NCBI GenBank assembly: GCA_904066235.2
Contig: CAJFCV020000005.1
Location: 2,046,001-2,110,000, forward strand
DNA from: Bursaphelenchus xylophilus
Taxonomy: Eukaryota > Nematoda > Chromadorea > Rhabditida > Aphelenchoididae
DNA length: 64,000 bases
Direction of reading: 5' to 3'
In this document: piece after piece, positions 3,528-63,583 of the stretch
How the letters are laid out: each line of letters starts with the position of its first letter
Numbering within the stretch: position 1 is the stretch's first letter
Made by a program: the position numbers and the translations under genes
The notes under the pieces: model-generated
Seen by the model: the letters and a program-made list of their open reading frames with translations, nothing else
Database searches by the model: none
What the model was told of the DNA's origin: nothing

Positions 3528-3974
3528 CAAGGGAAGTACCCAAGTGCAATGCTCAGATTTTGATGAAACTTGGCTCAAATTTAGAATATTTTTTTCTCAA
3601 AAATATGCGAGAATCCAAGCTCGCGCTTTGCAGAAACAACCGAGATTTTTTGATCGAAAGTTGGCGAAATTTTAACACTTTTTGCTGAATTTCGGCACGA
3701 AAAGTTTTATGCCTATTTCTACCATACAGGGTAATGTTTCCACAAAAAATCAATTTTTGCCGCACGAAACTGGCAACGTTATGGCCAAAAGATGTTTTCC
3801 CTCTGTCCGCTCTCCATGTTTAGCGTACTCTCTCGCCGGCAAAGATCGTTCAATATTTCGGCGGCGCTTGAAAGGCGCGAGCTAAAACTTTCAGGAATTG
3901 TTATATAGTTCATGCCCGACGTGTGTTCAAAATTTAAAGAAAATCCGAGCGTTGCACTTGGGGTACTTCCCTTG
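3528..3974. mobile_element. REP-A foldback element
   Basis: CAAGGGAAGTACCCAAGTGC at the left is mirrored by GCACTTGGGGTACTTCCCTTG at the right (21 bp end to end, quoted only for the ends). The interior carries the family core: GCTCGCGCTTTGCAGAAAC, TGTTTCCACAAAAAATCAA, a CTGTCCGCTCTCC segment, and AAAGATCGTTCAATATTTCG. It lies upstream of the kinase-like gene start. REP-A is the commonest interspersed repeat in the window, with at least 13 full or partial copies. Confidence 0.7.
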
Positions 3975-18189: not shown

Positions 18190-18970
18190 TGGCTCCAACT
18201 GGCCGTTTTTTGTTGTTCTTTATCATGAAAAGTTTAACTTTAATTTCTACCGTAGAGGGTAATGTTCCCACAGAAAATCATTTTTTGGCGCGCAACTGGC
18301 AGAGATACGGCCAAAAAGTGTTTTTTCTCTCCGCTCTCCGCGGTCCGCGTACTCTCTCGGCCTCAAAGATCGTTGAATATCTCGGATCTCCTTGGAAAGC
18401 GCGAGCTAAAACTTTCAGGAATTTATATATGCCTATACCCAATGCGTGTTCAAAATTTAAAGAAAATCTGAGCGTCGCACTTGGAGCACTTTCCTTAAAA
18501 GTTTATCAGGAAGTAAACTTACAGGGAAAGTACTCCAAGTGCGACGCTTAGATTTTGATGAAATTTCGCACAAATTTGAAATAGTTTTTTCTAAGATATA
18601 TGTGGGAATCCTAGCTTGTACTTTGCAGAAACAACCGAGATTTTTAGATCGAAAGTCGGCCAAAATTTAGCTCTTTTTGCCGAATTTCGGCACGAAAAGT
18701 TTCATGCCTATTTCAACTGCAAAGGAGAATGTTTCTACAAAAAATCAAAATTTTCCGCACGAAACTGCCAACGTTATGGCCAAAAAGCGGTTTTCTCTCT
18801 GACCGCTCTCCACATTTAGCGTGCTCTCTCGGCGACAAAAATCGTTCGATATCTCGGCGGCGCCCGCAGAGCGCGAGCTAAAACTTTAAGGAATTGATAT
18901 TTAGTCCATGCCCGACTTGTGTGCAAAATTTAAAGAAAATATGAGCGTCGCACTTGGAGTGCTTCCCCTG
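18190..18970. mobile_element. REP-A truncated copy followed by a full copy
   Basis: 18190-18515 is a partial REP-A lacking its left end. A full copy follows at 18522-18970, with CAGGGAAAGTACTCCAAGTG and CACTTGGAGTGCTTCCCCTG ends. TTA flanks both sides (18519-18521 and 18971-18973), a 3-bp duplication. Confidence 0.75.
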
Positions 18971-19229: not shown

Positions 19230-20330
19230 AATTGGCAGAGATACGACCAAAATATGATTTTTTCTCTGAGCGCTCTCCGAATTTCACGAACTCTCTCGTC
19301 GAAAAAGATCGTTGATAATCTCGGCTCTCCTCGCAAAGGGGGAGCTCAAATTTTCAGGACTTAAAATATGACCAATACAGAGCGCTGTGGCCAAGTTTTT
19401 TGAAAATTTGGTCATTAATCCTTGAGAACTTTCAATTTGAAAAAAACCATTTTTTAAATTTTTTACAAACTTTTAGTTGCACTATAAACCTTTCAATTTC
19501 ATTTCCATTTACAGAAAAAATCTCAAGGTTATAGCTAATTTGCTCCAAAAGTTTCCACGCAAAATCTTTTTCCGACTTTTTACAATCAGAGACTGTAAAC
19601 TTTTCCCTAATAATTAGCCCTTCCTGTTCCACGCTCCCAAATTTCCTCTTGCGAATTTTTAATCGAAAACACACAGCATGCGTGAAGATTGATCAGTTTT
19701 TGACGACAGATTAAATGGAATTGTTTGATTGCGTGGGCAAAACAAGTAAGAAATTTGTTGTTGAAAAGTAGCGGCTTCTCGGAAAATTGCGCGATTAATT
19801 CGATTTTTTTTTGTTTTTTTTTATTTTTTGTTTGTTACAGGTATCGTGGAGGGTGGCCAGACAATTTTAACAAATTTTTTCTTAAGGCGACATTTTATAC
19901 GATGGGGTTTTTTATTTTTTTACAGTGTTCCAAATGCTGCCTTAGGTCTTGAAATGATTTAGCATAAACTGAGAGTAATTTTTTCTGTAAAAATATGAGA
20001 GATTTCTAGCTCGCGCTTTGCAAAAACAACCGAGATTTTTAGTCCGGAAGTTGAAAAAAATGTTACATTTTTTTTGCAAATTTTGGCATGAAAAGTTTCA
20101 CACGTGTTTCTACCGTAGAGAGAAATCTTTCCACAAAAAATCAATTTTTTCCTGGAAAAGATACGGCCGAAAAAGAGTTTTTTCTCTGACCGCTCTCCGC
20201 AACATCCGTGTTCTCTCAGCCGCAAAGATCGTTGAATATCTTGGCTCTTGCTGTAAAGCGCGAGCTAAGATTTTCAGGAATTGATATGTGGGCTATCTCC
20301 AACAAGTGTGCAAAAATTTTAAAAAATTTT
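19230..20330. mobile_element. Two degenerate REP-A fragments
   Basis: Fragments at about 19230-19425 and 19975-20330 keep the CTCTCCG...TCTCTCG core and the TCGTTGAATATCT segment. The ends are eroded. The sequence between them (19430-19960) shows nothing recognisable beyond a CGACATTTTATACGATGG signature near 19890. Confidence 0.5.
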
Positions 20331-20714
20331 TTTTTTAATTATGGTTAACTGCAATATTTCGTTTTTTTATTTTATTTTTTGAGCCTTTTTTATTTTCTTC
20401 AGAGACCCTTTTCTTGTTAAAAGAAATAAATCTAAATTTACGCAAAAATTCATAAAAAAATTTGAGCGTTGCACTTTAAGATTTCTCCTGCAAATTTTAA
20501 ATTCAAAAAATTATGAAATTTCAAATTCGTATTTTCGATATTCTCTGCTTACTGATTAGTTATTGCTTATTGACTGCTAATTTTTAATGAATCATTAATT
20601 AGGGTCGTCGGGTTTGGTTTATTATTCCATTATGTACAAAAAAAATTAGAGATAACAATGTCCTCTATGAGCGGTGTAAAAACAACCAAAACGCATTTGG
20701 CGGGTAAGACAGTG

Positions 20715-21800
20715 AAGTCATTTTTTTTGATGGACTATGGGGTTTTCTTTTTTTTATAGTCAAGGAAAAAATAAAAAAAAATTAAAAAATAAATTAAAAT
20801 AAAATGAAATAAAATAAAATAAAAAAATAAAATATATAACATCATTATATATTTTATTTTTTATTTAATGTGTCAGGATGACACCCATTTATAATAAACC
20901 AATGGGATAAACAACCATTGAAAAAAAATTACTTTTTTTTCAAAAAATTTACTTTTTTGGTAAATTTTTTTATGTTTTTTGCTAAAGTCGTATGAATTTT
21001 TTTGGTGGACTATGGGTTTTCTTTTTTTTTATAGTCAAGGAAAAAAAATAAAAAAAAATAAAAAATAAATTAAAAATAAATTAAAATAAAATGAAATAAC
21101 ATAAAAAAAATATATAAGATCATTATATATTTTATTTTTTATTTAATGTGTCACGATGACACCCATTTATAATAAACCAATGGTATAAACAACCATTAAT
21201 TTTTTTTTTTTTTTTTTAATTTACTTTTTTGGTAAATGTTTTTATTTTGTTTTGCTATATAAAAAGTCGTATGAATTTATAATCTTTAGGAACTAAATTA
21301 CTTTTCTTGGCAAAACGACCGATGAAATAAGCAGTAAATTCTATTACGATTAATATTTATAAATGGTATTTATCATAGTCTATGTTAAACTTGCTTTTGA
21401 AAAAAAAGGACTATGGGGTTTTCTTTTTTTTATAGTCAAGGAAAAAAAAGGAAAAAAATAAAAAAAAATAAATTAAAATAAAATGAAATAAAATTAAAAA
21501 AAAAATATATAAGATCATTATACATTTTATTTTTTATTTAATGTGTCACGATGACACCCATTTATAATAGACCAATGGGATAAACAACCATTGAAAAAAT
21601 TTTGCTTTTTTTTCAAAAAATTTACTTTTTTGATGAATTTTTTTACTTTTTTGCTATATAAAAAGTCGTATGAATTTAAAATTTTTAGGAACTAAATTAC
21701 TTTTTTTGGTAAAACGACCGATGAAATAAGCAGTAAATTCTGTTACGATTAATATTTATAAACGGTATTCATCATAGTCTATGTTAAACTTGCTTTTGAA
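20715..21800. repeat. Tandem array, about three units of up to ~405 bp
   Basis: Each unit starts near GGACTATGGGTTTTC (20727, 21007, 21408) and continues through TATAGTCAAGGAAAAAA, an A-rich tract, and TGTCACGATGACACCC, followed by TTATAATAAACCAATGG. The second and third units also share AAAACGACCGATGAAATAAG and TAATATTTATAAA segments. The first unit is shorter, about 280 bp, as if part was lost. No coding potential is seen. Confidence 0.75.
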
Positions 21801-22267
21801 AAGAAAACAAAGATTTATGATTCCCGAGCTATATAACTTTCTGCCCGCAGGTGTGATATCTTTTAATTTTCCCAATTTTTTATTTTTATTTGATATTCAA
21901 CTTTGGTCTTTCATTTTTTCTCAATAACAATATTTATGAAAGGCCGGGCTGTTTCCGGGCTAGTCCAATAAAACCAATAAAAAAGAGGAGAGGAACGTGG
22001 CCGAACGTATTCGAAAACAATGAGAAGATATACCTCCTCCTCCTCGGCTCCAAACTGTTTTCTTTTTTGGGGACAGGCGGGCGAATGAAAAATGGCCAAG
22101 GCTTGATCCGAGATAAATAAGATAAAAAGGATAGATTTTTTGGGAAATTTGGCTGATAATTTTATAATTTCTGTATCTTTTTCACAATAAAAATAAAAAA
22201 TAATTGGTTATTTTACATTGGTTTTCGGGGAGACATTTTATACGATAGAATTTTTTATTTTTTTTAC

Positions 22268-22700
22268 ATTGAGATTTTGATGAAACTTGGCGCAAATTCA
22301 GAATAATTTTTTGTAATCCATATACCAAATTTATAGCTCGCAGTATGCCGAAACCATCGATAATTTTTGCCTGAAAGTTGGCAAAAATTTGACACTTTTT
22401 TGTAAATATTTTTTTTTTTTTTTTTTTTTTGAAAAGTTTCATACCTAATTGTACCGTAGAGAATAATGTTTCCACAAAAAATCAATTTTTTCCCCACGAA
22501 ATTGGCAGAAATACGAGCAAAAAACATTTTTTTCTGTCTAACCGCTCTCCGTGTTTCGCGTAGTCTCTCGTCGGCAAAGATTGTTGAATATCTCGGCTGC
22601 GCCTGCAAAGCGCGAGCTAAAACTTTCAGGAATTGATGTGTGGTTTATGTCCGAAATGTGTGCAAAATTTGAAGAAAATCTGAACATTACAGTTGGAGTA
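22268..22700. mobile_element. REP-A, diverged copy
   Basis: GATTTTGATGAAACTTGGCG, TTTCCACAAAAAATCAATTT, CGTGTTTCGCGTAGTCTCTC and GCGCGAGCTAAAACTTTCAG occur in family order. The ends are weak. Confidence 0.55.
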
Positions 22701-24720
22701 CTTCACTTTTTATAATAGCTAAAATATCTCTTTTTTTTATTTTTTTGTGGTTTTCTTTGATTTTATGAGCAAAAAGTAAAAATAGAGAAATAAAAAAGTC
22801 ATTTTTTTATAATACTCGATCAAAAAAAAAAAAAAAATAAAACAGCTTTTTTAAAAAAAGTATCAAGCTTTTTTGTCAGCAAAATGTGGAGCAATGACTA
22901 ATTTCACTGAACAACACCTCATTCTTCCACTCCTTTTTTTGTTTGTTTTCCACAATAAGGGCGTCTGTATAATTTATGCTTCAAATTTCATTTATTCAGA
23001 ATCCTCAATAAACCGAGAGGTTTTGGATTTCATTTCGATTATTATTCGCCCTCCAAAATGTCGGACATGAAGCTTGTTTGTTCTTACTGTACTTATTATC
23101 CGGCTAGTGGAACTGTCGAAATCTGTAAGTGAATTTTTTCTGGGTTCTTTGGTGATAAAGAATTTGAAAATTTTGAAAAAAATATTTTCGAAAAATGGTA
23201 AGGGGGGACCGAAGGAAAAATTTTTGAAGTGAAAAATTTTTGCAGCTCTGAAATTTGATGACACTTTGGATAAATTTCAAGTTGAATTTTTTAAAGCATA
23301 TATGGGATTTATAGGTCGGAAAATATAAAAGAAATTTTTTATTAAAAATTTTTTTTATTTTGTTTTGGGGAGATGTTTGTAAAATAAAAAAAAAATTTAT
23401 TTTTATGTTTATCAATATTTTTTGCAGTTTTTAATGTCTAAAAAATAAAACATTTAATTAAAAAAAAGTTTTTTTTATTTTTTTTTTTGGGAGATGTTTG
23501 TAAAATAAAAAACAATTTTATTTTATGTTTATCCATATTTTTTGCAGTTTTCAATGTCTAAAAAATAAAAAAATATATTTTTAATAAAAAAATTTTTTTA
23601 AAAAAATTTCCGTATAATTCAATTTTAAATGCTCAAAAAACTCAAAAATTGCCCATTTAAATCCGCAAAAGAGTTTCATGCCTTTGCAAAAAAATTGAGG
23701 CCACTTATTGTCAGCAGGTGAGAAAACGGACCCACAGATTTTTATTGGATTTGCAATTTATTATTTTTTCTTGGGTGTGAGAAATTTATCATTTATTAAA
23801 TTGCGGAGAGTGGGAAAATTGTGACAGAGATGAGAGGAGGAATTTAGATCCTTTTCTGAGAAGTTTAAAGGGCAATTTGGGGGAAATTTCTCTGTGACTA
23901 ATGATGAATAATTCCACTTTTATGCTATCGGAACCATAAATTTATTTTTTGTTTTAGATTTGTTTGAATTTTTGTTTAAATGTAAATATTATTTTTTTTT
24001 GATTTTTTTTACTTTTTCCAAAAAAAAATTTTTAATTAAAGACGGGTTTAAATTGAAATTTTGAATTTTCGCCTCAAAAATTCGCTAAAAGAAATAAATT
24101 TAAAAAAAATAAATTTTAAAATAAAGTAGAAATTCTAAAAAAATAAAAAAAATGGCGATTTTTTAAAAAACCAAAAAATATTTATTTATTTTTTTTTTAA
24201 ATTTCGAATTTTTAAAAAATAAAAAAATCCAAAAAATTTTAAAAAAAAATATTTTTTCCCACGCCTCAAAATTCAATGCAAACCAAAATTAGCAGCCGAA
24301 AAAAAGTTGCATGATGTGAGATCCACTTAATTATTCATGAAAAACAATTCTCGAGGTGGGAAAAATTGGAGAGTCCAAGTTCGAGGAATCCCCCTTTTTC
24401 TCCTTTTTTGGGCTGATCAAGAACTTATTTTCATTCTATTTTGCGAAAAAACTTCCGTTTTACAACGGACTAAGTAGTTGAGTGAATTCGACGTTGAAAT
24501 TTTTTCGTTTTTTGGCGATTCTTGGAAAAGGGAAAAAGAAATATTGTAGGCTTACAAAGTCGTAGGAACGGACCAAATAGAATCAGCTTTTTATTGATTT
24601 GATTACCATGATATTCTAAATCATATTTCGTTTTTGTTTTTTATTAAATTTTAGACTACTCTAATGTCATTTCGCTGCAGGGAAAACGAGTTTTTTTCTT
24701 TCGGCCTGGTGGTAGAATTA
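22701..24720. other. AT-rich spacer with one weak exon candidate
   Basis: An ATG at 23058 opens MSDMKLVCSYCTYYPASG and runs to a GTAAGT donor at about 23125, which would suit a first exon, but I find no downstream exon that chains. A ~125-bp direct duplication (about 23340-23455 and 23465-23575) shares GGGGAGATGTTTGTAAAATA-like and TTTTTTGCAGTTTT segments. The remainder is A/T-rich with no gene. Confidence 0.3.
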
Positions 24721-24800: not shown

Positions 24801-25706
24801 CAGGGGAAGTACTCCAAGTGCGACTAAGCATGGCTGCAAACCGGGCCAGCCCGGCCCGGGCCAGCCCGGCCCGGCCCAGCCCGGGCCGCAGGCCCGGGCT
24901 TAAATCTCCAAGCCCGGCCCGGGCCCGGGCTTGGAAAATTTGGAAAGCCCGGCCCGGTTCGGCCCGGAAAATTTTTATACTAGGTTGGAAAGAAAGAAAG
25001 CGGGAAATGAAAGGAAAATTATGGCAAAATGTAAAGAAAAATTTAGCAAAACCTAGGTACATAAGGTCACTTTACGTTCGCTATCAGCAGTGTGTCCGAA
25101 AAAATGAAAAATTCTGTCGAAAAAGCTTATTTTTTCCTTTTTTCCGGGCAAAAGTCAGATTTCAAAAAAACCGGGCCGGCCCGGGCCGGGCCTAAAAAAA
25201 GAAGCCCGGAGGCGGGCCGAGAAATTAGTCGGCCCGGCACGGGCCGGAAAATTTTGCAAAGCCCGGCCCGGAGCCATGCCTAAGTGCGACGCTTAGATTT
25301 TCTTTAGATTTTGCACACATGTCGGGCATTGACTAAATATCAATTCCTGAAAGTTTTAGCTCGCGCTTTGCGAGCGCCGCCGAGATATTGAACGATTTTT
25401 GCCGCCGAGAGAGCACGCTAAACGCGGAGAGCGGTCAGAGAGAAAAACGCTTTCTGGCCATTACTTTGACAGTTTCGTCCGGAAAAATTTGATTTTTTGT
25501 AGAAACATTATCCTTTACGGTAGAAATAGGCATGAAACTTTTCGTGCCGAAATTCGGCAAAAAGTCCTAAATTTTCGCCGACTTTCGATCTAAAAATCTC
25601 GGTTGTGCGCGAGCTAGGATTCTCGCATATATCTTAGAAAAAATTATTCTAAATTTGTGCCAAGTTTCATCCAAATCTGAGCGTCGCACTTGGAATACTT
25701 CCCCTG
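24801..25706. mobile_element. REP-A full copy, split by a nested hAT MITE
   Basis: The ends CAGGGGAAGTACTCCAAGTG and its inverse (25687-25706, CACTTGGAATACTTCCCCTG) are flanked by TGA on both sides. The element is interrupted just inside its left end by the GC-armed hAT MITE at 24825-25282. The nesting dates REP-A as the older insertion here. Confidence 0.8.
24825..25282. mobile_element. GC-armed hAT MITE, copy 2 (458 bp)
   Basis: TAAGCATGGCT and its inverse AGCCATGCCTA bound the element. AGTGCGAC is duplicated exactly at 24817-24824 and 25283-25290, and AGTGCGAC is part of the REP-A end it landed in. GGGCCCGGCC-type arms flank an AT-rich centre. Confidence 0.9.
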
Positions 25707-29274: not shown

Positions 29275-32200
29275 ATGTCGGGCGTGGTGGAGCCGCTGTG
29301 GATTCGGCCGGAATCGGCGCAAAAAGAACACATCGAAGAGGAGAAGATGCAGCGATTGGAGTGCGAGGCCGCGAACAAGATTCTGGGACAAGGAGTTGAG
29401 GTGAGCAAAGCTGTTTTGATGCGTTTTGTTCAGTTTTTTTAGAAAATTTGAGATCAGTTATATTGCACTAGATAAATTGATGAATTTTGAATAGAATTTT
29501 GAGCGAATACAAGAGTCTATGGTATTTTTAGGTCCGTCGGATTGCTGGTGGAGTGGTTTCGAAGCCGGCAGTGCTCTGTGTTCATGACGGCAAAATTCTG
29601 ACCTATCCAAGTACAAGTTGTTTTGTCTTGCGATCGCTCCGGGTAAAGCTCTCAACTCCCATAAAAACCAGTAAGTTTTGGTCTGAAAAGTATTTTGTTA
29701 CAATTTTAGACCCCTGAAGCAGGTAAAAATTCAAATTTCAGTGGAACTAAATCGACTTCTCGAGGTTCGGCAAGGTTATCATAGTGATGGTCTGCATCGT
29801 GCCTCAAAGAAGCCGAATTTCCGCAAAGACGCACCTGTAAGTCGTTGAATTTTTGCTTGTTGATTTACGACATGGTATATTACGATATTTTTTACAGGAG
29901 AAACGCTGTTTTTCACTCATCGCAAAGCACCAAAGGAATTCCGTAAAAGCCATCGACTTCCTTGCGGACAATCAAAACGAACTCGAAACCTGGATCGATG
30001 CGTTGAAGATTGTGCTCAAGCATTTGGTGGAGAATTGCGTCACATTTGACGAGAAGATTTGGTTGATGAAACATTTCCGGAAAGCCGACATCGACAAGAA
30101 TGGCGCGTTGGCCTTCAATGAGCTGTGGATGCTGCTGAAACAGCTGAATTCACAGATGAATGAGGTCCATGTGAGGTGTTTGTTTAATGTAAGTGAAGGT
30201 TATGGTCTTATAGTTCGTTGAAAGTTGATTTGAAGGATGTGGGGTACAATTTGGGGAAACGGGAGATTAAATATTGATTTAGTGGGGCAAGTGTAATATA
30301 GAGGATAGAAGAAGTCTTTAGAGATCTTCTTCAATGCCTTTGATTAAATTTAATCATTGGGAATGATCTGTAAGGGCTTGGCGTTCAATTTTAAAGCTCA
30401 GGGGTAGAAATTAAAAAAACAGGAGATCAAATATTGATTTAGGTGGGCATCTTTAATATCTAAAATAAAGTCGATCTTAATGAGGTTGCTATTAGCTGAA
30501 AATCGAAGGTTAGGAGTTTCAAATAGTCAAGGTTTAATGTGTGTGACTCCTGGGTAAAGTTTGAACAAACGCGGTCCAACGTTGATGTCAACAGGGCAAG
30601 TGCAATATCAATCAAAATAGCATGCAGAAGGCTGATATTTTCCAGTCTAAATGTGGAGTTAGGTTCTGTAAGGGCTCTAGATTGAAGCTATAAGACATGC
30701 GACATCTATTTGTTTTGGTTCGATGTCTTTTTGTAAATCTTTGGTAAGGTGGACACCAGGCAAAATTTTGATGACACAACCCTAAATTTAGAGTCAAATT
30801 TAGTTTCCTCTGGACCCTTTAATGCCTTTTCTATAAAATAAACCAGTTTATTACAGTGGTGGACCTGATCCAATGACAAAAAACGTACCATTTTGCATCC
30901 GGGAAGTATCAAAAATGTGACAAAATGCTTCCCTCTCCAGGTGAAAACACTCCGATTTCAAAAGCGCGCCCGCTCTTTTTGTGAGAGAAATTTGAAGGCG
31001 CTCTTCAAAACGAAGTTTTTTCGCTTGGAGAAGGAAGCATTTTGCCACATTTTTGATGCTTCCCGGATCTAAAATGGTATGTCTTTTGCCACTGGATCGG
31101 GTCCGTCACTGTATGTCTCGACCTGTAATCCCATGCCCCATATAAGTATCTTCCTTGTTGTAAGTATTGCTCTGCCTGTCTTTCACACGCAAGATCACGT
31201 CATTATTCTACAATTTCCTTTCAGAAAATCCTCGAAAAACACAACAAATCGAAGGCTCAATTGGAGTTGAATGAGTTTCTGGAGCTCTTCCGATTACTCA
31301 CCACTTCCGAAGAGCTGAAACACGCCTTGAGGGAGAATTCGGAGAAATCCGAGGAATTCATGGACTCCAGAGACTTGTGTAAATTCCTCCGTGACGTGCA
31401 AGGATTCGAAGATGTGGATTGGCAGACCGCAACAGACCTCATAAAACAGATGGAAATCCATTCAAAAAATCCCAATCGCAATAGTCCGGTGAAAATGAAT
31501 GGTCAATTAGTCCTTACGGCGAATGGTAAGAGCTTTTTACTGCATTTTCGACCTTTAAATTTGCTAAAAATTGACTTAAACAGAGTTTTTTTTGAGAATT
31601 TTGCCTAGTACAATATAAAAATTTTCGATTTTCATTATATTTTTTGTATTTTAGGGTTTCGCCGACTCCTTCAAAGCAAATATGGCTCGATTTACAAGCC
31701 GAATCATCAGCATATATATCAGGATATGACTCAACCGTTGTGCAATTACTATATTTATAGTAGTCATAACACCTACCTAACCGGCCTTCAATTGAGTGGT
31801 CGAGCGACGGTTGAAGGGTACATTTCGGCGTTGAAGGCTGGTGCAAGACTCTTGGAATGTGAGTTTTGAGAATTTTCGGTAGTTTTTTTGGGTTGGGTTA
31901 CTTTTTTGACTAGTGCAATATATTAGCAAGTGTAAGGTAAATTTTGCTAAAATTACTGTTGATTTTAAGATAGAAAAGGTTATTGAAGCGTTGTAACGGA
32001 TATTTTCGTCTTTTGGGATCTTTGAAATAGGAATTTTGAACTTTTTTTGGCGTTTTTATATCAGCATGGGTAGTATAATATAAACTTGGTCATAATTTTT
32101 AGTTTGTCATGCGTAAGCTTGGTCGTATAGCTTTGTTAGACCCCAGACTGCTTATTTTATTGAGTGAAAGCGAATTTACGATAATTTTTGGGGTCTAGAC

Positions 32201-34971
32201 GTACCGAACTACCTAGTTTAATATAAGTTTTATCTACAGTGGCAGACCTGATCCAGGGGCAAAAAAACGTACCATTTTGCATCCGGGAAGTATCGAAAAA
32301 TGTATCAAAATACCTCCCTCTCCAAGGGAAAAAACTCCGATTTCAAAAGCGCGTCCGCTTTTTTTGTGAGGGAAAGGCCCTTCAAACGGAGTTTTTTAGT
32401 TGGAAAGGGAGGCATTTTGCTACATTTTTTGATACTTTCCGGATGCAAAATGGTACGTTTTTTGCCACTAGATGAGGTCTGCCACAGTAGATAAAAATTA
32501 TATTAAACTAGGTAATTCTTTACATCTAACCCAAAAATTATCGTAAATTCCTTTTCACTCAATAAAATGAGCAATCTATGATCTAAAAAAGCTATACGGC
32601 CGAGCTTACGCAAGACAAACGAAAAATTATGAGAAAATTTATATTACACTACCTATGCTGATATAAAAACCCCCAAAAAAAGTTTAAAATTCCTATTTCA
32701 AAGATCGCAAAAGCCGAAAATATCCGTTACAACGCTTTAATAACCTTTTCTAACTTTAAATCAACACTAATTTTAGCAAAGTTTACCTTACACTTGCCAA
32801 TATTGCACTAGTGAAAAAAGTAACCCAAACCAAAAAAACTCATGAAAAACTAAAAAAGTCACTGTAATTTTCCAAATTTCAGTGGACATTTTTGATGGTG
32901 AAGATGGAGAACCCAAAATCACTCACAAACGAACCCTCATCACCGCCATTGGATTGCGCAACGCCCTCACTTACATCAAACGTTACGCATTTGAGAAGTC
33001 GCCCTACCCGATTATACTAACCCTGGAGAATCATGTGTCATACGACCAACAAAAGACCATGGCCCAAATTTTTGAGGAAATCCTAGCCGATATGCTCTAC
33101 ATCCCAACCCCCGAGACCGTCGACGGCCCGATCCCATCGCCAGAACAACTGAAATTTAAGATTTTGTTGAGAGGAAAAGTGACTCAAGGCATTTTCGAGG
33201 CGGATGATGAGGACAGCAATGAAGATGAGAAGAAAAAACTGGAAGCGAAGAGCAGCGGAGTGAAAGAGACCCATCCCGCAATGAATCGGATCATCGCATT
33301 GCCAACTGTGCCGCTGAAGAAACACTTTGTGGAGAATATTATTCATGACCGTAAGTAAAAATTTGGTTGTTGTGAGTGAAAATGAAGAATATTTGGGAGT
33401 AAGAGGGATGATATAGGAACTAGAGAGTTGTCTGAGCTTGTATGGGGATGGTAACGTCTGGGAAGAAAGAATTTTTACAATTTTTTGGAGTTTGTAAACT
33501 ATGTTACACTAGGCAAATTTTAGTCAAAAAAGTTTAAAAAATAGTGTTAGTTCTACATTTCAGCGGTAGATAAAGGTAGTATGGGCCAAGATAGGTCATA
33601 TATAGAGGTTAGAATAAAGAATCTGGTGAAATTTTTGTATTAATTTATATTGCACTAGGTACTTTTAATGAAAAACATTCAAAAATAAGATGATTTTCGG
33701 CTTTTTGTGGCGGAACAAAGTAGTATATGTCAAGAATTACTGTTTTATGGTACGGTGGATGAAAAAATTGACAAAATTTGAGGTCAATGATATTATACTT
33801 GATATTAAATTTGATCACCCGGTTGCAAAAGTTTAGCCGATTTTTTTGTATAATTTTTTAGTTAACGATCCTAGATGACAATTAGAAGATTTTGAACGAT
33901 CTTTTGAGTATTTTTTATAATCCAAAAAATTTTTAGACGCCTCTCATTCCTCGGCGTCTCTCGGTGAATCCGTCGTTGATTGGTTCGCCACTCAGAGCTC
34001 ACTCATCCACAAATACACTCAAAAACACATGGTAAAGAGCTATCCGCATGGTATTCGACAGGACTCTTCCAATATGCACCCGTTAAACTCGTGGCTTTGT
34101 GGAGTCCAATGTGTTGCGATGAATCTGCAGACAGAAGGAGAAGAAACCGACCTCAACGTCGGTCTTTTCACTGTAAATGGAATGTGCGGCTACTACCTGA
34201 AGCCGGAGATTCTTAGACTCGGTTTGAACCCCATTGAAGTGGGCAGAACGACAGAGAAATGGATGAGAATGCGGATCAAGGTGATCAGCGGACAATATTT
34301 GCCCAATGCAGATCCATCCGATGATATCATTGATCCGTATGTGTGCCTACAGGTGATTGGAATCCCTGCAGACACGAACAAGTGCAGAACGAAAGCTTTG
34401 AGAGACAATGGTAAGGAGATTTTCAAAAATTTTGGGATTATTCGGGGAAAATGTGGGTTTTTGAAGGAAAATCTAAAAAATAGGTAATTGTGACGCCGTT
34501 TTATTATTTGAAATTGATGTTGATTGGTGTAAAATGGCTTGAACTTTAATGATGCAGATTTTGAGAAATTTTGGATTTGTAAATTACGAGTTATAGGCCT
34601 TTTTTTGGTCGAAAAATTGGATTTTTTACGGATTTTGGGGGAATTTTTGATTTTCAAGATTTTTTAACGAGGGTTTGGTATTCAAAATGAAGTTAGATAG
34701 TAGCTGAAGTAGTAACACTCCCATTTCAGGCTTCAATCCTGTCTGGAACGAGGAATTTTCCTTCCAAATCACCTCGCCCGACGTCGCTTTCCTCCGATTT
34801 GTGGTCATGGACTTTGACACCACCTCGGCGGACGACTTTGTCGGCGAATTCACAATCCCCGTGACGAGCATCCGGCCCGGCTACTCGTTTGTCCGCCTCC
34901 GCACCTTCCAACGCTCCCCCGACGAAGCGGCCAGCCTTTTCGTTCATATCGACATCTCCGATGAATACTAA
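29275..34971 (+). CDS. plc-4: Phosphoinositide phospholipase C, delta type
   Basis: Nine exons chain to 779 residues: 29275-29400, 29532-29670, 29742-29836, 29898-30188, 31225-31525, 31655-31858, 32883-33350, 33937-34410 and 34740-34971. The order is PH-like region (about 43-160), EF hands (canonical loop [12 protein letters not shown] at 184-195), X domain (about 325-470), acidic linker ([12 protein letters not shown]), Y domain (about 535-650) and C2 (about 660-779). It hydrolyses PIP2 to diacylglycerol and IP3 at membranes. Six residues match the rat PLC-delta1 active site with a constant offset of 44: H355, N356, E385, D387, H400 and E434. SSHNTYLTG and LENH are intact. The size and PH-EF-X-Y-C2 order without extra domains fit the delta class. 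The symbol is by analogy with the C. elegans delta enzyme and is not proven orthology. Introns 4 and 6 are enlarged by MITE and palindrome sequence. Confidence 0.92.
30852..31113. mobile_element. PAL-E hairpin MITE, copy 1
   Basis: TACAGTGGTGGACCTGATCC at the left is mirrored by the inverse at 31094-31113. Internally, ACGTACCATTTTGCATCCGG is mirrored by CCGGATCTAAAATGGTATGT. It lies in PLC intron 4. It is followed by a short fragment of a PAL-B end (ATGTCTCGACCTGTAATCCC, near 31112). Confidence 0.8.
31875..32855. repeat. Whole-intron palindrome in PLC intron 6
   Basis: About 31875-32234 is the near-exact inverse of about 32490-32855. Paired examples are GTTACTTTTTTGACTAGTGC with GCACTAGTGAAAAAAGTAAC, and AACGGATATTTTCG with CGAAAATATCCGTT. 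The PAL-E element at 32235-32489, itself palindromic, sits at the exact centre. Nearly all of the 1,024-bp intron is therefore one foldback. Confidence 0.85.
32235..32489. mobile_element. PAL-E hairpin MITE, copy 2
   Basis: TACAGTGGCAGACCTGATCC at the left is mirrored by GAGGTCTGCCACAGTA at the right. The inner arms carry CCATTTTGCATCCGGGAAGT and its inverse. TA-bounded ends suit a Tc1/mariner-type non-autonomous element. Confidence 0.8.
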
Positions 34972-35260: not shown

Positions 35261-38200
35261 ATGGACAAGGAGGTGATAAAATATCGTAAGTTTCTTTATT
35301 TTTTCCTTGTGTTTTAGGTGTAAAACGGTACAAACCGCTAGAATAGAGAGTTTTGAACGTTCGGGAACAAAATTTTCTTTTGATTGGGACCAAATTATGC
35401 TTGCTCCAACCTTTTTTTAAAGAATTTTGGATATATTTTTATATTATCCATTGTAAAATTGTTCTCAGGTATTCGCGAGGCTTGGATAGCATTCTCTGAT
35501 GCCAAATTCAGTACGCCAATTGATAATGTAACAAATCGTCTGATTTCGGAGTTTGTCTTTCAAATGATCGACCGGCTGATGGAGTTCACAGGAACAGATG
35601 TTTTCCTGAAGAAGGCGGAAGAACTACACGAGTATGCAATGTTGCGAAAGGAGGAACTTGCTCTGGCCATTCGACCACGCGACGTAGAGAGATTCCAGCA
35701 GTATATTGATTATGTAAGAGGAGTGTTTACCTAATTTTACATCTGGCCTCATGGATAATATAAAAACCGTTTTAGTTGAAGAAATCAGACTTTGAGAGGT
35801 ATAATGAGCCAAAGTTTGAGCATGGACTACCGTTTATTTTGACTGTGGAAGAGATAAAACGGCTGAATGATAACATGAAACGTCAAGTTGAAGATCCGGT
35901 ATGTGCAATATTTTTTTTGTTTCGCATGCTTTAGGCTGAGACTGAAGCAAGACACCAAAAAATTCGAGCGCTGCCGGACAGTTACGATGAGCTGTATGAT
36001 GGAGGAGTCCCAGCACCTCGTTTTCCCTCATCGTCGCGGCATGTTGAATATGAATCGAAAGCCGAGGCGATCAAGAGCGGATTCCTGTCGAAGCTCGAAT
36101 TTTTTCCTTCCAATCCAAGAACAGCTCATTTCCCGCCTGTGAATTCAGCGGTAAGAGGATTTTTGATTTGTTTTTTGTTAGTTTAGGTCCAAAGCCACAT
36201 TGTTTCATATCGACCAAATTTTTTTGGGTGTTCAGGTGTCGAAGACAGCCGAAAGTCATTCGAGCTCGGCAAAGTTGAACCCTCCGTTGTTTCGGCCAGC
36301 AAATATGATAAGTTCCGCGACTTCCGCTCCTTCTGGATCAGGTTTTGGGAGTATGGGTAACAAAGCCAAAGAGAAGATCCAGAACAGTTCGAAAGAGGCC
36401 TCCCCAATTCCTGTGGATGAGACTTGGGAGAAGACGTCAACTGACAACTTTAGTAGTGAAAGTCTGCGAGAAAAAACGGCGGAGGAACGAGCTATGGACC
36501 GGCCCAGCAGGACCATGGATAATATCGAAATTCCCCGAGATTTTCGAGGAAGATCGGTCGATTCAAACGCCGAAAGAGGTCTTGTGAATTCCATGGCTGG
36601 CCTTCATATTTCGCGAGACAGTCGTGGGAAATCAGTGGACCGAAGCAGCCAATTGAGCAGGTCAAGTGTCATGGATAAGATCAGAAAAATCTGCGACGAA
36701 GTTGAGAAGAAAGCAGTGGAACTGGAGAAGTTAAGAGCTGGACAGACTGTGGATACTTTGAAGCATTCATGTCACCATTCTCGAGGGGAAATGATCGATT
36801 TGAAAGGCCCAGAAGTTCAGAAGACCAAGGAGAATATCGACTGGAAGGCACAAAATTCCGATGGGAAATTTTCGATGGCCGAGAGCGTGCAGGACATTGG
36901 TAGACATCAGGAGGCTTTGGCAGACATCAGGAAGCAATATGAAGAATATTTGAAGACATTGGGGAAGAAAAAAGACCAAAGGACCAAGGATAATATAAAA
37001 ATTTCTCAGAACTCCACGGAAAACCTTGGAGAAGTGCAAGCACAGAATAAAAGAAGACCTGTGAGAGTTATCAGACAGAATTATAGCGAGCGGCGAGAGA
37101 AATCGGAAGATTCATACGGTCAATTAACAGGGGAAGTACTTCAAGTGTGACGCTCAGATTTTCTTTAAATTTTGCACACACATCGGGTATGGACTAAATA
37201 TCAATTCCTGAAAGTTTTAGCTCGCGCTTTGCGGGCGCCGCCGAGATATTGAACGATTTTTGCCGCCGAGAGAGCACGCTCAACGTGGAGAGCGGTCAGA
37301 GAGAAAACACCTTTTTGGCCATAACTTTGGCAGTTTCGTGCGGAAAAATTTGATTTTTTGTAGAAACATTATTCTTTACGGTTGAAATAGGCATGAAACT
37401 TTTCGTGCCGAAATTCGGCAAAAAGTCCCAAATTTTGGCCGACTTTCGATCTAAAAATCTCGGTTGTTTCTGCAAAGCGCGAGCTAGGATTCCCGCATAT
37501 ATCTTAGAAAAAATTATTCTAAATTTGTGCCAAGTTTCATCAAAATCTGAGCGTCACACTTCAAGTACTTCCCTTGTAAGCAGAAGAGCCATGGATAAGA
37601 TGGACTCAAAATATCAAAGTTCCGGGAAGAAATCAGCCCTGGATGAAAGCATGTACGAAGGACCGACCTTGCAAGCCATGAGGAAGCGATATGCAGCGGA
37701 ATTGGAGAGTTCGGAAAGTGAAGAGGAACGGGAAAAGGTAGGGACCAAGGATAATATCGGAAGTTCTCACAAGGAAAGTACTTCTATGTGGTCTGGAGTT
37801 ACAGATCGGGACATATATAAAAAAATTTGCAAAATTTTTCTGATTCAGAATATGTATAAATTAGCTGCCAAATTTTGGTTTGTAACGGTGAAAAGGCCCT
37901 CAGAACTTTTCTCGCAATACCACGCAAATGCCCCTTTTTTTACATTGGAACTATTAATTAAGGTGCAGTATTAATCAAATTTGATATTTTAAGGCTTGTC
38001 AAGGTGCCAGGGTTTACATTAGCTCAAAATAAAGCTTTTGGTTTGATAAAGACTTGGTCAAAAAGGCATTGTTTTGAGCTAAGGTAAACCCTGACATCTT
38101 GACAAGCCTTAGAATGTCAAATTTGATTAATACTACACCTTAATTAGTAGTTCAAATGTAAAAAAGAGGCATTTGCATGGTGTTGCGAGAAAAGTTCTGA

Positions 38201-41183
38201 GGGGTTTTTCGCCCTTACAAACCAAAATTGAGCAGCTGATTTTTACATATTCTGAATCAGAAAATTTTGCGATTTTTTTGATATATGTCTCGACCTGTAA
38301 CTCCATACCTCGTAAAAGTACTTTCCTTCTCAGGAATCGTTGCTAAAGGCTGGAGAAGGACGAGAAAGGAGTCGAAGACGATCCATGAGAGTAATCCGGC
38401 AAAATTATGAAGATTCGACGCAGAAATTGCGGCAGCAAGGAAGTCAAAATGTTAAGAATAATAGCACCTTGGATCGTAAAATTCAGCAAAGAAGTCAAAG
38501 CGCTTATGAGGTCAGATGCAATAAGGCCGCGGAATGGGTCGATAAATCGAGTGCATTCTTTGACAGCACTGTTGGAATCTCGGCCAAGTCGAATATCCCG
38601 AAAGAACTAAATGAATACGATCTGAGTGAATGGGACACCCTGAACTCGGTCGAGAACTCGTTCAACAACGAGAAGAAACGGTTTGAAGGCTGGGTAAAAG
38701 AGGAATCCGGAGCCGGCGAGAAGAAGGCAGAAAAAAAGGAGGAAAAAAATATGGAGATCCAGGTTCAGAAGCCGGGCCTCAAAGTGGATGAGAAGGAAGA
38801 AAAGATTGGTAAGATTTTTATTTTTTTCTTTGAATTTTTAGAGTTTAGAAATGATTGATGTGAAAAACGAGGAAACGAGTGATTTTTTAAGAGAAATCTG
38901 GAAAATGGGTTATCATGACGCATTTTTTCACGGAAGTTTAGAAATTTCGATTTTTGGCAAAGGGATTTTTTGGCAGACGTATTTTAGAAGGAAAATTTTG
39001 ACTTATAAAAAATTTTTTTTTTGAAATTTTGGACTTGGTACCCCCTTACCATTTTTTTCTGAAAAAAATTGGATTTGTTCCCCCTGGCCATATTTTTTTT
39101 ATTTTTTTTCAGCCGAAAATTGTATGGAGGATGCGAAACCTCCCTGTCAGAAAGAAACGCCCTTAACCTCGCCAATCGTTGTTGTCCACCGTCCAGGCGG
39201 GCTGGACGTCATCACCAATAACCCCAAATACACGAAGACCCACAGTGTTGTGTGTGAAGTGAGAGTTTTTTTTTTGAAATTTTGGGATGTTTTGGAATTT
39301 TTTTTTGAAAAAATGTTTTATGAAATTTTTCAAAATTTTTTAAACTCTTTATTTTTGATTTTTTTTATTAATTTTTTTTTCAAAATTTTTCTAATTGAAA
39401 TTTTTTTTTTGGTATTTCGATTTTTTTGATTTTTTTTTACTTTTTTATTTACTTTTTTTATTTTTTTCAGGACATTCTCAAGTTCAATTACAAGCCCTTC
39501 ACCAGCGGACTCACAAACAGTTTTGGCCAATCCTGGAACACATTTGAAAAGGTACATTTCTAGCGATGTAAATTGATTATAAATTAAATTATGCTGTTAG
39601 TTCTAAGTGTTGTTTTTATTTATTTTTTCACGTTTTTAACGCTTCATCAATAAATTTCTCAATTTGCTTTTGTTTTAGCCTCAGCCGACGGTTATAAAGA
39701 ATGTGGAATGGGACCTCCAAAATAGTGTTAGAAAAAATGAAAAGCGAATTTTGCCGAACCCCGGGATAACCGAAGCCAAGAAAAGTGACGTCATTTCTCC
39801 GAAATCTCCGGCGGAAAGCTTGGTAAGTTGAAAAATAGATATCGGGAAAAAATAAAAGTAAAAAAAAAATTAAATTTTCATATTGCCAGTGGTTCAAAAA
39901 TATGAAAAAAAGCTAAAAAATTTTTTGCGATTTTTTATTTATTTTTTTTTTTTTTTTAATTTTTGATTTTTTGCTTTTTTTGAGAGTAAAAATTTTTTTT
40001 GTGCCAAAAAAAATATTGTTTTTTTTTGCCAAAAAAAATTTTATCAAAATTTTAAATTTTTTATTAGCCCTTTTTTCAGGTCACGGTCTCCACGATTAAC
40101 ATGCAGTCGAACGCACCCAGCCCGCAGGTCCGCCAACAGAACACCTTTTCCTACACCCAGGACCCCGAATTTGTCTACGCCCAATGGACTCGAATCCTCA
40201 TCCTCTGCGGCGACGATTGGCCAAGTGTCCGCATCAAGAAGTCCCTGCATCCGGGCACTTTTATCCATAGACTCACCGACACTTCCACACTGAAGCAATT
40301 GGTCGAATTGCTGAGGAAATTTGAGTACTCGGAGAAAGTGAAAAGCGTCGGAATCACGGCCAACAATCACTGGACTCGACAAGCGCCCGGAAGCTGGGGA
40401 TTGATCGGGGTGAGTGGAATTTTTTGGCGAGATTTTTGGGATTTATGTTGGAAAATACAGGGAAAAGTAATATTTTTTTGGTAATTTTTTTGAATTTTTG
40501 AAAATTTTTCTAATTTGAACGCTTGAAGTTTACAAAATTTATCTTGATTTTTTAGGTAAAAAAATTTTGGGCAAGGTTTTGCGATGATAGGCCCAAAAAC
40601 GTTTTTTTTTTGTCTGTCCACTCTCTTCATTTCAAACACTCTCTCGCCAAAAAAGATTGTTGAAAATCTCAGAAGCTCTTGCAAATATTGAACTGAAACT
40701 TTCAGGGATTAATTTATGGCCTTTTTAGAGTATTTATTCAAAATTTCACAAAAATTGCCTAAGGGCATTTATCCTAAAATTTGAGAAAAAAATTTTTTTT
40801 TTTTTTTTGATTTTTAAGATAATTTTAGGGAAAAACAAGGGTGTTTATTGTTTTTTAACACCTTCTGCGATTTTCTCAGCGAATTTTGAAAAAAAATAAA
40901 AAATTTTTTGAAAATTTTTTCCAAAAAAAATTTTAAGGACGTCTTCCGAGTGATCCAAGAGCTCTTCCCGATGGCCCGTTTTACCATGACAACATGTTTC
41001 AACACCTACGAATTTACCGAACCCGCATTTAATCGACTTTTGAACAAGAAACTGGCTCACAGCAGGACAACAACCCTCATTGATGTGATAAAGGAGATAA
41101 GTCGAGGAAATTTGAGGCTGAAAAGACATCATTTGGACGATGACTCGGCCCAACAGCTGTATAATTTTATGCTCGACGTTTAG
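35261..41183 (+). CDS. Large, largely disordered protein of unknown function (coding exon carries two MITEs)
   Basis: Exons 35261-35285, 35469-35713, 35776-35898, 35935-36150, 36236-38808 (interrupted), 39113-39258, 39471-39551, 39679-39822, 40080-40409 and 40938-41183 chain in phase. If the two insertions are left out (36236-37127, 37580-37769, 38333-38808) the product has 1037 residues. The N-terminus (FERYNEPKFEHGLPF region) and C-terminus (two blocks, with DPEFVYAQWTRILILCGDDW and DVFRVIQELFPMARFTMTTC) look folded. The middle is Ser/Arg/Glu/Lys-rich and low in order. It contains two copies of an RVIRQNY motif and a QLSR-(x)-MDK-like motif. I recognise no known domain. The two insertions put stops in the frame unless they are spliced or absent from other alleles. 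Confidence 0.75.
37128..37576. mobile_element. REP-A copy inside a coding exon
   Basis: CAGGGGAAGTACTTCAAGTG and its inverse CACTTCAAGTACTTCCCTTG bound 449 bp, with TAA duplicated on both sides (37125-37127 and 37577-37579). The flanking coding sequence reads GGT CAA TTA A before and GC AGA AGA GCC after, which joins in frame when the element and one TAA are removed. Confidence 0.85.
37770..38329. mobile_element. PAL-B copy 2 inside the same coding exon
   Basis: This is an almost perfect foldback of 560 bp with CAAGGAAAGTACTTCTATG at the left and GTACTTTCCTTC at the right. TCA is duplicated at 37767-37769 and 38330-38332. Removing the element and one TCA gives AGT TCT CAG GAA TCG, an in-frame join. 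The arms (about 280 bp) are more complete than in copy 1. Confidence 0.85.
40560..40770. mobile_element. REP-A remnant in an intron
   Basis: It keeps the TCTGTCCACTCTCTTC, ACACTCTCTCGCC, AAAGATTGTTGAAAATCTC and ACTGAAACTTTCAGGGATTA order of the diverged subfamily. The ends are lost. Confidence 0.45.
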
Positions 41184-62600: not shown

Positions 62601-63583
62601 CCTGAGAAGAGACCATTGGATTGGAGATTGGTGTGGCGATAAGCGTCCAAGTCTCCTTCCAGCCATTTGTTTGCACCTCTTTCTGTAAAATACGACATTT
62701 TTTATGTATGTTGTTAAGAAAAAGTTTGCGAATTTTGAAAAAAATCGGTAAGTTCAACACAGGGTACCCCAAGTGCGACGCTCAGACTTTGATGAAACTT
62801 GGCACAAATTTAGAATATTTATTTCTAAAATATATGCGAGAATCCTAGCTCGCGCATTGCAGAAACAACCGAAATTTTTAGATCGAAACTTGGCGAAAAT
62901 TTGACACTTTTTGCCGAATTTCGGCACAAAAAGTTTCATGCCTATTTCTACCATAGAGGGTAATCTTTCCACAAAAAATCAATTTTTTCCGCGCGAAACT
63001 AGCAAAGTTATGGCCAAAAAGTGCTGTTTCTCTCTGACCGCTCTCCACGTTTAGTGTGCTCTCTCGGCGGCAAAGATCGTTCAATATCTCGGCGGCGCTT
63101 GCAAAGTGGGAGCTAAAACTTTTAAAGAATTGATACTTAGTTCATGACCGACGTGTGTGCAAAATTTAAAGAAAATCTGAGCGTCGCACTTGGGGGTATT
63201 TCCCTTGCCAATCAAAAATTTTTCCCAAATAAACTTACTGTTGCGCCAATTCTGGCGGCTCGTTGGAACTGTTCGACGGACCGAATATCAGAGAGGTCCA
63301 GGTTCATCAAAAAGCAAATCATCTCGCCGCTATTTCGCACCGAGTTGTCCATGATGGCAATTTTGTTCTAAAATACGGATTTTATTTTCGAAAAATAAAA
63401 AAAATTTTTTTCAATATGACTTACTGTCTTAAAATCCAGTACTGAGACATAGCTCGAAGTAAATGGAGGCGCACCAGTCTGCTCAATTCGGACTTGTTCT
63501 TTTGCCACTTGCATTCTGAACCGATTCGGGGTGTCCGAATTTTTTCGCTCGATTGGCGGAGGTAGCCAGCTCCAGGACAATTG
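59624..63583 (-). CDS. BRICHOS-like domain protein with Gln/Asn/Gly-rich tail (5' end outside window)
   Basis: Eight exons chain in phase: 63583-63425, 63367-63239, 62682-62526, 62011-61845, 61584-61236, 60910-60729, 60655-60413 and 59713-59624, giving 491 residues of the C-terminal part. The first three exons give YVSVLDF, ICFLMNLDLSDI, then SSQAF-PELAECRGAKWVEL. This matches the BRICHOS layout: a hydrophobic strand, a first Cys, a Leu-rich helix and a second Cys ~60 residues later. A Cys-rich segment follows (CAECTDFC, DCFYFFVPQW). The last ~290 residues are low complexity with three QPGQFGQ-type repeats, a GGGGGG run and INQIGQGIGQIGQAIGQ. BRICHOS proteins are typically type II membrane or secreted and act as intramolecular chaperones. 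The membrane anchor should lie upstream, off the window. The domain call is by pattern, not by search. Confidence 0.65.

Follow-up and report, generated by a model that had tools for sequence, protein, structure and literature searches.

Two fold-back MITEs in one coding exon of a phospholipase C-like gene of Bursaphelenchus xylophilus, one of them a candidate newborn intron

A long coding exon in a 64-kb stretch of the Bursaphelenchus xylophilus genome (64,000 nucleotides, referred to here as the window) carries two MITEs, REP-A and PAL-B, which raises the question of whether the allele is broken or whether the elements leave the mRNA as newborn introns. The original prediction had posed the same alternative, and it was the right question to ask; for PAL-B the suggested intron also seems broadly sound, with a donor other than the one proposed, whereas the same proposal for REP-A found no support.

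The two insertions and their host exon

REP-A, a very young 449-bp TNA MITE, lies at 37128-37576 between TAA duplications at 37125-37127 and 37577-37579, and PAL-B, a diverged, near-palindromic MITE of 560 bp, lies at 37770-38329 between TCA duplications at 37767-37769 and 38330-38332 (both assigned from copy comparison, fold and frame). These limits agree to the base with those first reported. Both 3-bp duplications are perfect, the elements are 193 bp apart as claimed, and removal of each element with one duplication does give an in-frame join. If retained, REP-A would introduce an in-frame stop at 37148-37150 and PAL-B would end the frame at 37972-37974.

The host exon also contains paralogous internal repeats, on the forward strand, that correspond to the two junctions in their empty state. 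The repeat at 36981-37084 (104 nt, ungapped) matches through the PAL-B junction with a score of 53, compared to a maximum of 30 in 300 codon shuffles. The match of 36650-36681 to the REP-A junction, which includes one 3-nt gap, is weak, with a score of 33 compared to a shuffle maximum of 31. Based on these repeats, PAL-B was surely, and REP-A probably, inserted into continuous coding sequence, in agreement with the earlier claim that both had landed there. We also considered whether the double hit is itself a sign of something special and rejected this, as chance suffices: with ~700 elements (half of the 1421 exact ends described below) in 78.25 Mb, ~0.014 insertions are expected per 1.6-kb exon, and with ~12% of the sequence coding, roughly 0.6 double-hit exons would arise by chance, without purging.

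In the same predicted gene, the exons before the host exon (31657-34956, forward strand; domain search and exon prediction) contain PI-PLC-X, PI-PLC-Y and C2 domains, which makes the host a phospholipase C-like gene, and a structure-relative search returned PLC zeta and PLC delta as the best solved relatives of its protein. In the X-domain exon (32882-33349) the motif HKRTL aligns with HGHTL of PLC zeta, with R replacing one histidine. We take this to be the position of the second catalytic histidine of PLC, and the protein may be an inactive, catalytically dead PLC-like one. The joining of all the exons into one gene is predicted, and rests on our in-house exon prediction. One predicted intron of the gene, at 35899-35934, is 36 nt long, close to what would remain of the PAL-B intron discussed below with its hairpin looped out.

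In the host exon (36236-38808, forward strand; frame analysis and exon prediction), the frame is open for 297 codons before REP-A, for 62 codons between the two elements and for 158 codons beyond PAL-B. The two remaining forward frames have 12 and 14 stops in the first of these pieces, 2 and 4 in the second, and 7 and 13 in the third. The stretch between the elements (37580-37769, forward strand) has an intact frame and still reads as coding, with a coding score of 0.204. Because the predicted introns before and after the exon are in phase 0 and phase 1, the exon is not skippable in frame, and skipping of the entire exon was rejected as an exit for the elements. A search for orthologous proteins, queried with residues 700-1640 of the approximate product, found none among 7986 candidates scored. 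Pfam searches (E up to 0.1) gave no match for the left and middle pieces of the host exon, for 40086-40412 or for 40908-41180; the right piece had a single match, below threshold. Across the whole window, Rfam and tRNA scans gave no matches.

Ends, folds and ages of the elements

The two elements are not unrelated: CARGGRAAGTACTT ends are common to both. In the assembly that we searched (78,253,340 bases in 8 contigs), 1421 exact copies of this end are preceded by TNA, compared to none for the reversed control. In 90 loci taken from the genome, 40 distinct elements have both ends, and 37 of these 40, both focal ones included, have a perfect TNA duplication. The base before TNA is C in 22 of these 40 elements and T in 18, and the base after it is G in 25, A in 13 and T in 2; CTNAG is thus a preference, not a rule, among them. 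The Tc4 and Tc5 transposons of C. elegans are pogo-related, with a TNA duplication, a CTNAG-like target and a fold-back structure. Compared on these features, REP-A and PAL-B share the duplication and the structure, with such a target preferred in their clan, and they fit a single Tc4/Tc5-like TNA clan, although unlike Tc4 and Tc5 they are short and non-coding. Judged by positions only, at least one of the seven genomic HTH_Tnp_Tc5 matches sits between two exact CARGGRAAGTACTT ends, within a ~1.5-kb element on contig C4 (about 7314385-7315911). The genome's single DDE_1 match is on contig C2, outside the C4 element. The predicted fold of PAL-B is a single long hairpin (-390.9 kcal/mol over 701 nt; z -46.5, 20 shuffles), and REP-A, with 52-nt arms, is predicted to fold end to end (z -9.5, 100 shuffles); in both predicted folds, the feet of the hairpin fall at the element ends. 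A literature search on MITEs and transposable elements of B. xylophilus returned nothing relevant.

The ages of the two elements appear to differ. Of 3324 first-look candidates for REP-A, 40 were scored, the window copy among them, and each aligns over the full length of the 445-base query at 99-100%; this identity to 39 other copies indicates that the REP-A insertion is recent. The 40 sequences scored of 983 candidates for PAL-B included seven other full-length copies, with 83-86% identity. Against a consensus built from these seven copies and PAL-B itself, PAL-B shows differences at 42 of 556 sites (7.6%) and has a terminal branch of 0.083 in a star-like tree, and its own arms are 86.3% complementary compared to 96.4% for the palindrome of the family consensus. 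By its divergence from the consensus, PAL-B looks old.

Despite this apparent age, the 158 codons that follow PAL-B in the same exon contain no stops and no frameshifts. At d=0.05, neutral decay would be expected to produce ~1.7 stops and 2.3-2.9 frameshifts there, and the probability of an intact frame is 0.0098-0.018, falling to 0.0009-0.0023 at d=0.076. The frameshift part of these estimates depends on indel rates taken from copies of MITEs, and errors of alignment or assembly may have contributed to those rates; from stops alone the probability is 0.18 at d=0.05. When the next five predicted exons are added, for 473 codons in all, the probability is 2.7e-6 to 1.8e-5 at d=0.05, a figure that flatters because those exons were chosen as open stretches. 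An old PAL-B together with an intact downstream frame suggests that PAL-B is removed from the mRNA, that the downstream part is made separately, or that the element moved here recently. In the last case PAL-B could be an old copy newly arrived by cut-and-paste, and its divergence would not date the insertion.

Such a move is the basis of the broken-allele explanation, in which an old PAL-B copy and REP-A both arrived recently and the strain's gene is truncated. The near-identity of REP-A to its 39 other copies and the stop at 37148 are what this explanation predicts, and the shared ends suggest machinery that was recently active. The host might also be dispensable, as a PLC that apparently lacks what we take to be its second catalytic histidine, and exonic copies are rare elsewhere (see below), as expected if they are harmful. 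However, the terminal base of PAL-B is C where the family has G, and this mutation should hinder movement. PAL-B also has no close sibling among the 40 sequences scored of 983 candidates, all eight full-length copies of its family that were examined are diverged, and the good in-frame intron pair described in the next section would have to be luck. We regard a broken allele as rather unlikely.

Candidate splice sites and the PAL-B intron

We scored splice sites with nematode-like weights, and took as a reference 12 introns of the host gene that were predicted with the same weights (donors: median 4.15, weakest 3.10; acceptors: median 4.37, lowest 2.40). The acceptor originally proposed for PAL-B, TTCTCAG/GAA, is good on this scale, with a score of 5.51. 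The donor proposed with it, GGA/GTTACA, scored -1.70, and for REP-A neither the donor GAA/GTACTT (1.10) nor the acceptor AAATCTGAG/CGT (-0.96) reached the weakest reference sites. Both of the proposed donors were rejected on these scores. A better partner for the PAL-B acceptor is an exonic candidate donor in phase 0, AAG|GTAGGG, at 37738-37743 (forward strand, score 4.00). The candidate acceptor, GTACTTTCCTTCTCAG|GAA at 38318-38333 (forward strand), consists of the element end, the duplication and one target base. The resulting candidate intron, 37738-38333 (AAG|GTAGGG...TTTCCTTCTCAG|GAA), keeps the frame with a total score of 9.51, and was the one clearly good pair among 59 in-frame GT..AG pairs, although it was chosen after looking.

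None of the 35 GTs in the left part of the exon reaches the weakest of the 12 donors. Long ORFs totalling 26,433 nt contain 19 GTs that score at least 4.00, 12 of them in phase 0, and of 1504 AGs there, 3 score at least 5.51. As acceptors, the ends of this clan are mostly modest: an AG is present at the junction in 47 of 80 clan strand-ends, with a median acceptor score of 2.54, and only two of these 47, PAL-B among them, score at least 4.37. With the family's terminal G, the PAL-B acceptor would score 4.43 compared to 5.51 for the actual sequence. By score, PAL-B and its duplication supply a splice site, the acceptor, whereas REP-A does not. The modest scores of the clan ends weigh against the intron reading, as do the avoidance of exons by other copies (see below) and the following features of the site. 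The 31 nt between the donor at 37738 and PAL-B match the paralogous repeat at 84%, without intron-like drift, and the pyrimidine tract of the acceptor is paired in the predicted hairpin stem.

For REP-A, no good in-frame splice pair was found in the ranges scanned, where the best of 24 pairs totals 3.99 with a donor of 0.90. We also considered one intron that spans both elements, which would be in frame from 37145 or 37061 to 38333, and rejected it because the donors (2.80 and 2.40) fall below the weakest of the 12.

Our preferred account, which we hold tentatively and at a little less than an even chance, is that PAL-B has become a newborn intron and that REP-A hit the same exon separately and later. 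In this model, an old fold-back MITE of the Tc4/Tc5-like TNA clan would have inserted at a CTCAG site within the coding exon. Its right end would have brought the pyrimidine tract ACTTTCCTT, and the duplicated TCA with the next G would complete the acceptor TTCTCAG|G, while the exonic GT 32 nt upstream (AAG|GTAGGG, 37738) would act as the donor. Splicing of 37738-38333 (596 nt) would keep the frame at the cost of 11 ancestral residues (VGTKDNIGSSQ), and the hairpin may bring the intron ends to about 36 nt apart. REP-A would be a very recent, separate insertion for which we found no good canonical exit, and whether the allele works depends on this newer insertion. We infer both the splicing of PAL-B and its presence at this site since its divergence began.

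A strong acceptor could also serve a different purpose. Nematodes trans-splice, and if the PAL-B acceptor takes a spliced leader, the gene would be split into an upstream truncated PLC-like protein and a downstream part with its own mRNA, which has an in-frame ATG at 38385. The intact frame downstream would then be explained with no need to take the elements out of a single mRNA, and chance could have kept the 62 codons between the elements open (P 0.18-0.23 at d=0.05). However, that stretch still scores as coding, and a good cis donor is present upstream of PAL-B. We consider a split gene highly improbable.

Other clan copies and known systems

If clan members behaved as introns in general, other copies should also be found within coding exons. 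We tested 40 elements, 30 REP-A-type or focal and 10 other PAL-type, for a positive coding score together with a phase-matched frame that stays open for 30 codons or more to the left and to the right. Only the two elements of the host exon passed; none of the other 38 (28 REP-A and 10 PAL-type) did, compared to 11% of random window positions, 13% of flank positions and 0.6% of shuffled sequences. On openness alone (30 codons on both sides), 11 of the 38 pass, compared to 36% and 43% of the background positions, and it is the coding score, not openness, that separates the other elements from background. Clan ends likewise rarely touch coding sequence: 7 of 115 distinct ends do so, three of them in the host exon, compared to 21% expected (P 9e-6, treating the ends as independent, which they are not). 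These results contradict the suggestion that introner-like behaviour is a general trait, and we rejected a general introner family on the basis of this depletion. Since most of the tested REP-A copies are young, insertions into exons are apparently either lost early or avoided.

The same depletion bears on SOS-type excision, in which paired inverted repeats in the pre-mRNA would lead to spliceosome-independent removal of both elements and rejoining by RTCB, making splice sites needless. Zhao et al. reportedly described SOS splicing of DNA transposons from mRNA in 2026. Base pairing of inverted repeats has a role in this excision, and CAAP1 is an SOS splicing factor. Both elements here are DNA transposons in an exon with pairing inverted repeats whose predicted feet lie at the element ends, the genome has RtcB matches, on contig C2, and excision of this kind would account for REP-A, where no canonical exit was found. 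However, full repair of the mRNA predicts no exonic depletion, in contrast to the 0 of 38 elements that pass and the shortage of ends beside coding sequence. A search for CAAP1 gave no match, but it matched nowhere and is therefore uninformative. Overall we judge SOS-type excision of both elements to be distinctly unlikely. We consider it improbable, too, that PAL-B was first tolerated through SOS-type excision and then acquired a better acceptor by its terminal base change, with REP-A now repeating the first step. If true, this two-step history would represent intron birth via transposon RNA repair, and a lasting nematode gene that relies on hairpins to clear its mRNA of fold-back MITEs. The SOS pathway in animals is covered by a 2026 review (PMC13247085). 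As in SOS splicing, an animal gene here carries DNA elements with inverted repeats in an exon; a difference is that PAL-B has ordinary candidate splice sites too.

PAL-B as a newborn intron can also be compared with introners, which as described in PMC9860276 have TIRs and TSDs, take splice sites from the element, the TSD or the adjacent exon, and entail codon gain or loss. Like some of these, PAL-B is DNA-transposon-like with TIR and TSD, its candidate splice sites are shared between element, TSD and exon, and adjacent codons would be lost. Unlike introners, it is one exonic candidate and not part of a family spread through exons, as the 38 other copies indicate. The words nematode and Bursaphelenchus are absent from the main text of that paper. 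For the intron gains that a 2022 nematode survey saw in Caenorhabditis, no source sequences were found (PMC9169325). PAL-B would likewise be a candidate nematode intron gain, in contrast one with an identifiable source. The locus is of interest in that one exon pairs old-looking and young insertions of one transposon clan, with internal copies of their empty sites.

The window contains further members of the clan. A PAL-type element with exact ends and a TCA duplication lies near its edge, at 475-1045, and REP-A-type copies with 87-92% identity, older than the focal one, lie at 3531-3974, 18525-18970, 25282-25703 and 62771-63207. Partial REP-A-type copies form a patch at 16.7-28.3 kb, and the G+C content at 20001-24000 is 25-28%, compared to 31-45% in the other 2-kb bins. 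Elsewhere, one PAL-family copy (L035:1500-2044) has inverted flanks (GATTTTTTGA / TCAAAAAATC) in place of a direct duplication.
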